Shown here in pieces: positions 6,970-45,987 of a DNA stretch of 55,333 nucleotides. The notes under the pieces are model-generated. The model was not told the DNA's origin, ran no database searches, and worked only from the letters and a program-made list of their open reading frames with translations. Location: the NCBI GenBank assembly GCA_016207645.1, contig JACQPH010000012.1, positions 1-55,333 of the forward strand. The letters are read 5' to 3'. A program made the position numbers and the translations under genes. Within the stretch, counting starts at the first letter, position 1, and each line of letters opens with the position of its first letter. Source of the DNA: Elusimicrobiota bacterium (lineage in GTDB: Bacteria; Elusimicrobiota; Elusimicrobia; Elusimicrobiales; UBA9959).

Positions 6970-7725
6970 ATGAAAAAAAATACACTTGTTCTCCTCGGCG
7001 TTCTGCTGTTCTGCGCGCGGGCCGTCCCGGCTTTCGCGGCCGATGCGGCCGCGCTCTTTAAAAGCAAATGCGTCATGTGCCATGGCAAGGACATGAAGGG
7101 CAACCCGTCAATGGCCAAGATGTTCAAACTCGAACCCGCCGCCCTGGACCTGACCGGCAAGGCGGTCCTTTCCAAGAGCGACGCGGCCCTGGTTAAAATA
7201 ATTACGGACGGCAAAAATAAAATGCCGGCCCAGAAGGCGAACCTCACCGCCGCGGAAATAGGCGCGCTCGTGGCATATTTAAAGGGCGCGCAGCCCGGCG
7301 CCGCCGCCGCGCCGGCGGCGCCCGCCAAAACCGGCCGGGAAAGCGGCGGGGCCGCGGCCGCCAAAGAGGACGCCCCCGCCGGGAACACTGTTTATACGGC
7401 CAAGTGCGCCTCCTGCCACGGCAAGGATAAAAAGGGAAATGCCGGCATGGCCAAGGCCTTTAAAGTGGAGCCCGCCGCCCTGGACCTTACAAGCAAGGAA
7501 ACCCAGGCCAAAAGCGACGAGGAACTGTTAAAAATAATTTTGGACGGGAAGGATAAAATGCCGGCTTTTAAAGACAAGCTGGACGAGGGCCAGATAAAAG
7601 AATTAGTCGGGTTTATCAAGCCCGCCGCCGCAAAGAGCGAACCGGAAGCGGCCGAGGCGGCCGGCGGCGGCCCGGCCGAAGTCCGGGAAAGCGGTCTCCC
7701 GGAGCAAGCTCCCGTCACAAAGTAG
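6970..7725 (+). CDS. Exported dihaem cytochrome c with internal duplication
   Basis: The 251-aa protein starts with a Sec signal peptide (MKKNTLVLLGVLLFC, cleaved after about AFA). Two class I cytochrome c domains follow, with haem motifs at residues 34-38 (CVMCH) and 146-150 (CASCH). Each has a candidate axial methionine in K-M-P-A (Met86 and Met198). The two domains are clear duplicates joined by an Ala/Pro-rich linker. It is probably a periplasmic electron carrier for the complexes encoded downstream. A TAGAAT box at 6938-6943 may be its promoter. Confidence 0.9.
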   Translation: MKKNTLVLLGVLLFCARAVPAFAADAAALFKSKCVMCHGKDMKGNPSMAKMFKLEPAALDLTGKAVLSKSDAALVKIITDGKNKMPAQKANLTAAEIGALVAYLKGAQPGAAAAPAAPAKTGRESGGAAAAKEDAPAGNTVYTAKCASCHGKDKKGNAGMAKAFKVEPAALDLTSKETQAKSDEELLKIILDGKDKMPAFKDKLDEGQIKELVGFIKPAAAKSEPEAAEAAGGGPAEVRESGLPEQAPVTK

Positions 7726-36226: not shown

Positions 36227-37078
36227 ATGCGCAACACCGTCCCGAGGTCCCTGTTCGCCGCCGCGGCCGCGCTCTGCCTTATCGCGCAGTGCGCGGCGGC
36301 GCGCCAGCGGGGGGACGAGCGGAACACGCTGAAGTCCTATTACACCGCGGAATACCTGGCTTTCAAGAAGCGGATAATAGGCGAATTCGCCCAGGCCGGC
36401 GCCGGGCGCTTCAGCGAATTCGTGAAGCGCGCCAAAAAAAACAGGAACAAGGCCGGCGACAAGGAACAGAAGGTCCTGGCCCTGACCTTCGACGCCTGCG
36501 GCGGGCGCCACAGCGGCTACAATAAAAAGCTGATAGACTACCTGCGCCGGGAACGGATCCCCGCCACGCTTTTCGTCACCGGCCTCTGGATAGAGAAGAA
36601 CAGGGAGACTTTCGCGGAGCTGGCGAAGGACCCGCTCTTCGAGATCGAGAACCACGGCCTGCTGCACCGGCTCTGCTCCACCGAGGGGAAGACCAAGTAC
36701 GGCGTGCGCGCCACGCGCGACATAGGCGACGTGGTGGACGAGATGGAGCTGGGCGCGCGCAAGATAGACGAGCTCACCGGCCGGCGGCCCGTCTTCTTCC
36801 GCTCCGCCACCGCCTACACCGACGAGCTTTCGCTCCGGGTGGCCGAGCGCCTCGGCATGGAAGTGGTGAGCTACGACATCCTCTCCGGCGACGCCATGCG
36901 GGCCTCCGCTAAAAAAATGAGCCGCAATATCCTCGACGGGGCGCGGCACGGCGCCGTCGTGATAATGCATTTCAACCACCCCGGCTGGCCCGGCCTGGAG
37001 GCGCTGGAACTGTCCGTCCCCGAGCTGAAGCGCCGCGGCTACCACTTCATAAAGCTGGAAGACTTCTCCGTACGGTGA
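36227..37078 (+). CDS. Exported polysaccharide deacetylase (NodB-type, CE4)
   Basis: 283 aa with a signal peptide. The NodB motifs are TFDACGG (catalytic Asp89; the usual second Asp is replaced by Ala), NHGLLHR (His143 and His147) and FFRSATAY, ending with VIMHFN. It probably removes acetyl groups from a cell-wall or surface glycan. It follows the TldE-like gene by 16 bases, so the three exported proteins may form one operon. Confidence 0.88.
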   Translation: MRNTVPRSLFAAAAALCLIAQCAAARQRGDERNTLKSYYTAEYLAFKKRIIGEFAQAGAGRFSEFVKRAKKNRNKAGDKEQKVLALTFDACGGRHSGYNKKLIDYLRRERIPATLFVTGLWIEKNRETFAELAKDPLFEIENHGLLHRLCSTEGKTKYGVRATRDIGDVVDEMELGARKIDELTGRRPVFFRSATAYTDELSLRVAERLGMEVVSYDILSGDAMRASAKKMSRNILDGARHGAVVIMHFNHPGWPGLEALELSVPELKRRGYHFIKLEDFSVR

Positions 37079-37121
37079 CCCGCCCGGAAGATCCGCAAAA
37101 AAGATTTTTGGGGAGGGGGGC

Positions 37122-37150
37122 TTGACAAGTCAAATTCCGTCTGTTATACT
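37122..37150 (+). promoter_or_regulatory. Near-consensus sigma-70 promoter
   Basis: TTGACA at 37122-37127, a 17-bp spacer, and TATACT at 37145-37150. This is the best promoter in the window. It fires into the non-coding region beginning near 37157, where no credible reading frame exists. Confidence 0.75.
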
Positions 37151-37156
37151 TCATTT

Positions 37157-37520
37157 GTAGTCCTGATCTCTTAAGAGCGCCGTCGGTGTGGTTGCGGAGG
37201 GTGGCGGGGTTGCCCCGGCCCCGGCGCGGTTTCCCCCGGTTCGTTGCCAGCGTCAGTGCCGCCGTCTTGCGGCGTCGGCGTTTCGCGGTCCGCTCGGCGC
37301 GTTCGGGGTGTGCTCCGGTCCGTCTCCCGCCCATAGGGCGGCGCGGTCGCCGGGGTCCTGGTTCGGCGGCTTCCGCCTTTCGGCGGTTGTCCAGCTCCCG
37401 GGTGGGTGTTCCGGTTCCGGCGCTTCGCGCCCGGTCTCCGGCTCGCTCCTTACGCGGTCTGCGGTATATGCGGTCCTGGCCCGTGTGCCAAATGAAGAGC
37501 CCCCGTTCACCGGGGGCTCT
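37157..37520 (+). ncRNA. Candidate structured non-coding RNA, nearly free of A
   Basis: About 360 nt of non-coding DNA runs from the consensus promoter to a strong hairpin. From 37201 to 37489 only 8 of 289 plus-strand bases are A, and 37256-37332 has none, while T is about a quarter in the A-free part. Many short GC hairpins are visible: 37373-37377/37382-37386 (CCGCC/GGCGG), 37365-37369/37373-37377, 37419-37423/37427-37431 (GGCGC/GCGCC). On the minus strand the first has a GAAA tetraloop and loops are A-rich, so transcription from the minus strand is also possible. It has none of the hallmark sequences of RNase P RNA, tmRNA or SRP RNA. Reading frames here give Arg/Pro/Gly-rich nonsense. Confidence 0.5.
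37496..37520. terminator. Bidirectional terminator hairpin
   Basis: A perfect 10-bp stem AGAGCCCCCG / CGGGGGCTCT with a 5-nt loop, followed by CACTTTTAG on the plus strand and TCATTTGG on the minus strand. It ends the candidate RNA and also lies directly after the stop of the M64-like gene on the minus strand. Confidence 0.7.
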
Positions 37521-37536
37521 CACTTTTAGCGGCGGG

Positions 37537-38568
37537 CTACCACCCGGCCGCTTTCGCTATCGCGGCCAGGACGGCCTTCTGGTGGATAGGAGGGATCCGC
37601 GTGGTCGACAGGGTCTTCATGATGGTATCGAACCCGTAAGGGCGGAACGAAGGGAGTTTCCGGCTGCAATTGGCGCCCGCATATAACCCCGGCAGCGTAT
37701 TCGCCGGCGCCGGCGGCGTTCCCAGTTTGAATACGATCGCCCCGGAGCCGGCGGCGGTGGAAACCGTAATAGGCACTCCGGACTGGATCTCGTAGAGCCA
37801 GGGAATGTCCTCACGGTGGCGGCTCCAGGCTTCGGCATCGGAGGTATAGGCTTCCTGCGCGGCAAAGGCGGTGGTATTGGGGCCTTTCAATATCCGGGAG
37901 TGGCTGCAATAAAGATCGGCCTCGTCCTGCGAGTAGATGTACTCGTCGTTCAGGTTCCAGGCATGAAGCATCTCGTGCAGCATGGCGGGCAGGGGGTAAT
38001 TAAGCGATGCGACCGGGACCGTTCCGCCGGAGCCGCCGGAGCCGCGGCCGGTAAAAACCGCCGTCATATGCGCCGGCGCCGTTCCCAGGGAGAGAATATA
38101 TGCCATGTCGCAGCGGATGATGCGCGGAGATTGCGGAAGATCGTTCCGGCAATTCATCAGGTCCGCGGCACCCTCGGCATATTCTATCCGGAACCGGTCC
38201 CGGATGGACGCGAACGCCTCATGGTTCAGCAAGAGGTCCGTGAAATCCTCGGCCCGCTTCATGGCCTGCGCATCCGCGACGAACCGGATGCGGTAAAAGC
38301 CGTCGACAGGTATGGGGGCTAAGCTTTTTTGATGCCGGCGCAGCAGCGACCCCAGCGCCGCGTCTTTATAAACGCCGCCGGTCAGTATGGATTCGCCGTT
38401 GGCGTCGATCTCAATGGAATCGTAGAACACCAGTTCGGGGTCGGCGGCCAGGGCGACCGCGGCCCCGAGAGCCGACAGGGTCGCAAGAAACAACGCAAGC
38501 CGTCCCACAACCTGTGAAAAGCGCCTGGTCAGGAGCGCTAAAGCGGGCCAAGATCCGCGTATCTGCAT
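37537..38568 (-). CDS. Exported M64-like zinc metallopeptidase
   Basis: 343 aa from the ATG at 38568, which has GAGGG upstream; an ATG nine codons earlier is possible. A hydrophobic leader at about residues 20-42 suggests secretion. The motif HEMLHAWNLNDEY matches the HExxH-x5-LxDEY pattern of M64 (IgA-type) peptidases, and the protein is otherwise novel to me. It is transcribed alone from the promoter at 38618-38646. Confidence 0.75.
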   Translation of the reverse strand: MQIRGSWPALALLTRRFSQVVGRLALFLATLSALGAAVALAADPELVFYDSIEIDANGESILTGGVYKDAALGSLLRRHQKSLAPIPVDGFYRIRFVADAQAMKRAEDFTDLLLNHEAFASIRDRFRIEYAEGAADLMNCRNDLPQSPRIIRCDMAYILSLGTAPAHMTAVFTGRGSGGSGGTVPVASLNYPLPAMLHEMLHAWNLNDEYIYSQDEADLYCSHSRILKGPNTTAFAAQEAYTSDAEAWSRHREDIPWLYEIQSGVPITVSTAAGSGAIVFKLGTPPAPANTLPGLYAGANCSRKLPSFRPYGFDTIMKTLSTTRIPPIHQKAVLAAIAKAAGW

Positions 38569-45459: not shown

Positions 45460-45831
45460 GTGCTTAATAAAAAGAAAGTGTACCCGCTGCTGGCTGAGGA
45501 TAAGGACCGCGCTTATAATTACATAGCCAGATTAGCGCTGGAGCAGGTGAATTTCAAGGGTGCGGCGGTCAGGGTAATAATGACCGTAGATAAAAGCAAA
45601 TCCCGCCAGAGAGTCGTCGAGTTCAATAACTATATAATCAGCCAGATAAAATCGCTCATCGATCCGCTCGTGCCGCTGGATATTATCCATATAAATTCCC
45701 ACGAAAGCCCCGGGCTGCAGGCGGTGGACATGTTCGCATGGGGGATCTTCCGTAAATACGAGAAGGCGGACCTGGAATGGTTTAACGTCTTTAAGGCCCG
45801 GGTTTGCATGGACAGGTTTTATTTGCCCTAA
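45460..45831 (+). pseudogene. DUF3800 protein, C-terminal part only
   Basis: About 123 aa from a GTG. The end (HINSHESPGLQAVDMFAWGIFRKYEKADLEW) matches the conserved C-terminal SPGLQxAD region of DUF3800. The usual N-terminal half with a Y-x-DESG motif is missing. In frame it continues upstream to the NYN stop codon at 45439-45441 (REHHFVVLNKKK). It may be a truncated remnant, a short domain version translated by coupling, or the tail of a NYN-DUF3800 fusion interrupted by one stop. Confidence 0.6.
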
Positions 45832-45838
45832 AAAAGAA

Positions 45839-45929
45839 GAAGAGCGTGCCGAGCAGGCGTACCTCCAAGTTCTTAGCCACCATCCGGCGGGAAACACTTG
45901 GTCCACCTGCAACGGACTTACCGCTCTTC
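45839..45929. ncRNA. Folded RNA-like element downstream of DUF3800
   Basis: The ends pair perfectly: GAAGAGCG (45839-45846) with CGCTCTTC (45922-45929). Inside, GCAGG pairs with CCTGC and CCAAG with CTTGG, giving a nested stem with internal loops. Seen on the minus strand, the outer stem is followed by TTCTTTTTT, a terminator-like tail. Structured RNA motifs named for association with DUF3800 genes have been described in comparative RNA searches (DUF3800 motifs I onwards). The location and fold fit, but I cannot match a specific one or decide the strand. Confidence 0.45.
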
Positions 45930-45987
45930 ATAAATAGTATACCAGAGCCCTAATATCCCGTCAACGGCTATTTTATGGTGGGATAAT

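Follow-up and report, generated by a model that had tools for sequence, protein, structure and literature searches.

Sponge RNAs of the CsrB/RsmZ type are encoded at several loci per genome, repeat a short loop motif and have a strong promoter and terminator. A different arrangement is described for Bacteroides thetaiotaomicron, where 14 paralogous FopS small RNAs (sRNAs) are bound by the RRM protein RbpB and the FopS family has been deposited in Rfam, according to an excerpt of that report (PMC11697453). Bacteria with FopS are characterized, in an excerpt of a second report, as having RRM proteins and being without Hfq and CsrA (PMC12119571). We analysed an element in a 55,333-nucleotide stretch of DNA from an Elusimicrobiota bacterium (contig JACQPH010000012.1 of assembly GCA_016207645.1; the whole stretch is hereafter the window). 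This element almost certainly represents a noncoding RNA family. Judged by its signals, it would be a plus-strand gene whose noncoding RNA product, about 370 nt long, runs from 37157 to about 37527; taken jointly with the proposal that this RNA binds protein multivalently, that reading is a tentative one.

The likeness to FopS, as far as the two excerpts describe it, lies in paralogous sRNAs that are present in multiple copies and end in intrinsic terminators, and in hosts that for FopS are described as having RRM proteins and being without Hfq and CsrA. The FopS RNAs are described there as a single-stranded 5' stretch plus a terminator hairpin, whereas the Elusimicrobiota RNA has several conserved hairpins, a length of about 370 nt, little A and CGGU repeats. 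No Rfam match relates the two in the window or in 13 loci scanned, with the presence of FopS in that Rfam release unconfirmed. With CsrB and RsmZ the element shares several loci, a short motif repeated in loops, and a strong promoter and terminator, but the motif is CGGU instead of GGA. A sponge for CsrA was ruled out, as GGA occurs only 0 to 4 times per RNA in 69 copies and CsrA was found in 2 of 59 genomes, neither of which has the RNA. The ornate RNAs OLE, ROOL and GOLLD are, in the excerpted account (PMC12286853), likewise structured noncoding bacterial RNAs without an assigned cellular role; the Elusimicrobiota RNA differs in its A-free loops and in having no Rfam match at the gathering score in the window and the 13 loci. 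If 6S RNA is assumed to be of the abundant noncoding type, the resemblance extends to that trait, but the present RNA is not built as one long hairpin with a bubble at its centre, and it is multi-copy and A-poor. The 6S model RF00013 had no match at the element and none in five genomes, so that a missing 6S RNA would leave a vacancy.

A paralogous RNA family in three Elusimicrobiota genera

An earlier note on this DNA, made from its letters alone, had pointed to 8 A in 289 bases and a 77-base stretch without A, and recounting gave the same figures. Positions 37201-37489 hold 8 A, 105 C, 109 G and 67 T, and nowhere in the whole window is there a longer stretch without A than 37256-37332. With windows overlapping the region masked, every other 289-base window contains at least 22 A. 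The element lies between a polysaccharide deacetylase-like gene (by Pfam) and a reverse-strand open reading frame (ORF) without a Pfam match.

A DNA search of 60 relatives and the element's own genome found it in 31 of the 32 genomes of the genus, often several times per genome; the sole genome without it is an assembly that is 66% complete. Outside the genus the only DNA match was promoter-like sequence alone. The 75 stretches retrieved contained 79 match places, or 80 counting the window. Five were dropped as terminator-only or unrelated and six as incomplete, leaving 69 complete copies, defined as having both promoter and terminator. These are 185-592 nt long, and 62 of them are covered by two alignments (A1 and A2) together with a four-member group C. 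As many as five match places occur in one genome (G003), and a tree separates at least three paralogue groups. The element's own genome (2.8 Mb, 167 contigs) carries one copy; since the assembly is 81% complete, further copies may be missing. The one other place in it that the covariance model matched, on contig C74 (E 0.35, 23.6 bits), was rejected as a second copy because it looks like ordinary sequence, with neither promoter nor terminator in the stretch inspected. Some paralogue groups often have members of one gene family as neighbours, 14 ORFs of a deacetylase cluster being an example, and no neighbour is common to all. In one genome two complete members lie in tandem, about 400 nt apart (L062, 2146-3393).

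A covariance model, R1, was built from the core of 28 copies. It matched 29 of the 32 genomes in the genus itself, all 3 from genus g15 and 2 of 4 from genus g16, and none of the 10 other genera of the family. It had matches in 30 of the 235 genomes from the class, spread over 3 of its 64 genera (E 0.001), and in 29 of the 340 from the phylum, likewise in 3 genera out of 100 (E 1e-6), with none in the other 97; because filtering is stricter in such large searches, so that known copies are overlooked, this is absence at that sensitivity. The five sister-genus copies (L135-L139) retain promoter, leader and terminator. The RNA is thus a member of a paralogous family in three Elusimicrobiota genera. 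As a narrow test of phage origin, one exact promoter-plus-leader pattern was compared with viral contigs, with no match. Two copies from different paralogue groups (L093 and L036) contain an A-bearing hairpin module (GCCGTCTGA...ACGGC) inside the 5' domain, and L139 has a similar module by eye; it looks as if hairpin modules had been exchanged between paralogues.

The region is crossed by ORFs of 113 and 166 amino acids on the plus strand and 158 and 85 on the minus strand. Between close copies (18 pairs), however, indel lengths leave remainders of 1, 0 and 2 on division by three in 54, 16 and 11 cases, which ignores codon phase and rules out protein coding; no frame is conserved, in line with the suspicion that none looked like protein. 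The Rfam 15 scan proposed with it left the element without a match at the gathering cut-off, the sole match in the window lying elsewhere. Seven matches within 37000-37620 at E up to 10 all scored far under the gathering scores, and scanning 13 loci, of which 12 carry family copies, gave no match. RNase P RNA, already excluded on inspection, is conventional in this genome and located elsewhere in it (C151, 200.7 bits), and its model RF00010 has no match at the element. Neither an Rfam model nor a description of the family in the open-access literature was found, subscription papers lying outside that search. The family therefore appears to be new, and its near exclusion of A distinguishes it from the RNA families known to us. 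The proposal of a new class of structured RNA, and the homologue and covariation check suggested for it, were borne out by homologues with compensatory changes in helices.

Conserved helices, transcript ends and strand

Covariation was assessed in several ways, all of them inflated by the relatedness of the copies. When 57 cores were aligned with the model (A4), a procedure fitted to the structure and so favouring the result, 96.2% of cells paired, compared with 36-64% in slid controls, and 9 of 16 pairs were changed on both sides, compared with a shuffled mean of 3.0 and 1-4 in slid controls; none of 500 shuffles reached any of five measures. An unfitted alignment of 28 rows (A3) gave 95.0% pairing and a covariation score above 499 of 500 shuffles. 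Its doubly changed pairs were at chance (2 versus 1.9 shuffled), which counts against a structured-RNA family, and plain RNAalifold on sequence-only alignments was weak, with no more than 4 doubly changed pairs out of 39 in one case and 15 out of 52 in the other.

Four individual helices (Table 1) passed tests by permutation. P2 scored 613 in 64 copies (5 of the 69 not used), above the maximum of 606.5 in 500 permutations, and its number of perfect helices, 40, equalled the highest among the permutations, whose mean was 30.7. Its 448 cells include 28 G-U and no A-C, the arm search having allowed G-U and not A-C. When the halves of P3 or P4 are exchanged among copies, the cost is about 2 kcal/mol (z -8.8 for P3 and -8.7 for P4, with 54 and 55 distinct sequences), and in their outer helices C-G is replaced by U-G in 45 of 621 cells. 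The arms of PT co-vary (CUGGC/GCCAG, CCGGC/GCCGG, ACGGC/GCCGA) with a mostly non-standard outermost pair, and their score of 440.5 in 69 copies exceeds the maximum of 421.5 in 500 permutations.

Table 1. Features of the element, in window coordinates.
Feature	Position	Strand	Details
Promoter	37122-37150	+	-35 TTGACA 37122-37127; 17-nt spacer; -10 TATACT 37145-37150
12-bp palindrome TTGACAAGTCAA	37122-37133		includes -35 element; operator-like; kept in nearly all copies
5' leader GUAGUCCUGAUCUCUU	37157-37172	+	presumed start G37157
Helix P2	37177-37227	+	GCGCCG 37177-37182 pairs with CGGCGC 37222-37227; closes variable 5' domain
Hairpin P3	37313-37355	+	CUCCGG 37313-37318 with CCGGGG 37350-37355; inner stem, variable tip
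Hairpin P4	37357-37402	+	CCUGG 37357-37361 with CCGGG 37398-37402; CCGCC/GGCGG tip
Predicted hairpin P5	37411-37441	+	CCGG...CCGG around GGCGC/GCGCC tip; from minimum free energy and by-eye reading
Pre-terminator hairpin PT	37476-37491	+	CUGGC/GCCAA
Terminator-like hairpin and tail	37496-37527	+	intrinsic-type, recurs in complete copies; GC-rich 10-bp stem AGAGCCCCCG/CGGGGGCTCT (37496-37505 with 37511-37520), then CACTTTT

Fold energy failed as a proof of structure. For the element itself, it beat dinucleotide shuffles modestly on the plus strand (z -2.3, 3 of 100 as good) and less on the minus strand (z -1.5, 8 of 100), and over 21 RNAs (16 of the 69 plus 5; 25 shuffles each) the mean z was -1.2 and -1.9, respectively. 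The stable hairpins described in the earlier note thus exist, but their energy is only modestly below that of shuffles, and given the GC content of the region energy alone proves little. The slightly better minus-strand folding in those 21 RNAs, measured against shuffles, speaks against the plus strand. On the functional strand, which the earlier note had left open, we nevertheless favour plus because of the orientation of promoter and terminator in the copies and the G-U pairs in covarying helices.

The bounds given for the segment, a TTGACA-N17-TATACT promoter and a terminator with a 10-bp stem, were both recovered, although a simple terminator scan, which demands five T in eight bases, called none in the window and missed this one. 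The promoter agrees with the consensus at 11 of 12 positions. Two promoter-like sites were found in total, compared with a shuffle mean of 0.2; the second is weaker, on the minus strand, and reads away. TTGACAAGTCAA-N7-CTGTTATA is common to nearly all complete copies, L038, L046, L102 and L136 being the exceptions noted, and with up to two mismatches allowed the element's own genome has three such sites. From its spacing to the -10 element, G37157 is inferred to be the transcription start. Leader positions 1-15 are near-invariant across 74 copies. The initial five letters of the leader, GYAGT, were also met at the +1 position when 11 other promoter-like sites were inspected, in 5 of them, and therefore only the later part may be specific to the family. 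A perfect 8-bp terminator stem was present in 64 of 66 copies examined (3 of the 69 not used); that every complete copy has a terminator is by construction, since copies were chosen for it. In L120 (about 1510-1620), a stretch of contig C37 in the element's own genome, the palindromic promoter TTGACAAGTCAA precedes a different, shorter RNA-like unit of about 110 nt, which ends in a terminator-like hairpin and has no Rfam match.

Adenine depletion and CGGU repeats

Depletion of A is a property of the whole family and not of the window copy alone. On average the body of a complete copy contains 5.0% A, never more than 10.4%, and 22.3% T; among the 69 copies A is below T in every case and under half of T in 66. 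Body T tracks the A+T content of the flanks (r 0.44), and body A hardly does (r 0.16). Residual A often sits within GCAGT and GTAGT, one step off GCGGT. Over the 69 copies CGGT itself occurs 922 times, about 13 per RNA, compared with 326 expected from dinucleotide shuffles; GCGGT and TGCGGT reach 507 and 212, compared with 117 and 20. Single copies hold 5 to 26 CGGT, and the five from sister genera 4 to 16. Within CGGU the predicted unpaired probability is 0.61 for U and 0.17-0.25 for C, G and G. In structured RNAs unpaired A is generally plentiful and serves to build tertiary contacts, and a conserved multi-copy RNA family that nearly excludes A raises the question of how it folds and what recognizes it. 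As a separate observation, the window's longest run lacking any single base is a stretch of 108 bases without T at 7281-7388, coding-like by eye.

That selection in this RNA class acts on adenine avoidance as such is, in our estimate, unlikely. Such avoidance could help the RNA to escape an adenine-dependent nuclease or modification, keep ribosomes off (ATG occurs at 2.2 per kb versus 10.0 and AGGAG at 0.05 versus 1.4), permit reading by a G/U-specific protein, or allow synthesis when ATP is short. If true, it would make this the first natural structured RNA known to us with loops built of U and not of A. A-poverty could also be a by-product of structural constraint and G-U tolerance in a GC-rich genome, the scarcity of A having no role of its own, as A-U pairs on the transcribed strand become G-U and G-C while U stays. 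Differences within 13 close pairs, 84 C/T and 18 A/G, show the asymmetry expected from G-U tolerance, and predicted paired positions hold only 2.6% A. Yet RNase P RNAs from five of these genomes show the reverse composition (A 21-25%, T 12-15%), sister-genus copies keep 2.7-8.3% A despite flanks of 43-51% A+T, and predicted unpaired bases are A-poor as well (8% A, 56% U); we consider the by-product account rather unlikely. A DNA element or a transcription-driven mutational skew with no RNA function would fit the strand asymmetry of composition and substitutions and the weak folding energies. It is very improbable in view of compensatory changes in several helices, the shared promoter and terminator, and the normal A of the leader and 3' end (15% each, with 4.5% in the body, 74 copies) within the same transcripts; covariation and the normal A at the ends also disfavour mutational skew alone.

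Candidate functions and protein partners

Our best guess for function, a tentative one, is a trans-acting RNA that binds protein multivalently, favoured because of the counts of Hfq, CsrA and RRM genes and the FopS-RbpB precedent. Hfq was found in none of nine genomes, and an RRM gene in 51 of 59 genomes of the taxonomic family. The breadth and copy number of the homologues, the CGGT excess, the predicted openness of its U and the shortage of A likewise speak for this reading. The RNA would be made at a high level, act in trans and bind an RNA-binding protein at many points, as sponge or scaffold. Contacts would be made through the many CGGU motifs of the 5' domain and hairpins, in which an unpaired U often comes directly after the end of a helix. 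With Hfq not found and CsrA nearly absent, a single-RRM protein would be the most natural candidate partner. With a partner that reads G/U, the loops would have U at places where A stands in other structured RNAs, and additional paralogues would raise dosage. At least two RRM matches occur in 20 of the 32 genomes of the multi-copy genus, compared with 2 of 27 others. Through this family, post-transcriptional regulation may become accessible in a phylum in which, among the genomes examined, Hfq was not found and CsrA is rare.

Several observations weigh against multivalent protein binding. Composition alone may account in part for the U predicted to be unpaired. Copies from genus g15 contain few CGGT (7, 4 and 10) and those of group C 6-8, so that the number is not strictly conserved. 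Fold energies barely beat shuffles, the plus strand doing slightly worse than the minus. Genera that do not have the RNA also encode the RRM protein, some RRM counts are raised by fragments, and kinship confounds the correlation with RRM copy number. CGGT is not enriched upstream of rrm (0, 1, 1 and 1 in four loci). A GUAGU 5' end shared by the RNA and the rrm mRNAs at four loci was dropped as a link, GTAGT or GCAGT being the start common at other promoter-like sites (5 of 11). These rrm genes (L145-L148) have a long, similar 5' region with GTAGT at the expected +1 and, by eye, CUCAA...UUGAG pairing.

The RNAs could instead be base-pairing sRNAs in which the leader (YCYUGNUCUYU) would act as the seed for mRNAs, with the structured body there for stability or to bind protein. 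Apart from the terminator, the leader is the most conserved part and is predicted to be partly unpaired (0.38-0.76, positions 1-19), and a conserved single-stranded 5' seed is described for FopS sRNAs in the excerpt cited (PMC11697453). Some 300 conserved body nucleotides exceed what a seed carrier needs, and by eye the leader could pair with AAGAG at the terminator base; we regard base pairing as possible, if on the improbable side. It seems unlikely that the RNA acts through its own structure as a scaffold or assembly, perhaps an oligomer, like the ornate large RNAs. The GC-clamped hairpin core is conserved and palindromic GGGCCC and CCCCGGGG stretches recur in many copies by eye, but the 5' domain varies freely in length and unpaired A, the usual currency of tertiary contacts, is nearly absent from the predicted fold. 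Binding of protein at many sites remains the reading that we prefer.

The sole Rfam match in the window is a DUF3800-V RNA on the minus strand at 45837-45931 (RF02964, 49.3 bits, cut-off 37.4), adjoined by an ORF (45460-45831) that by eye resembles a DUF3800 remnant.
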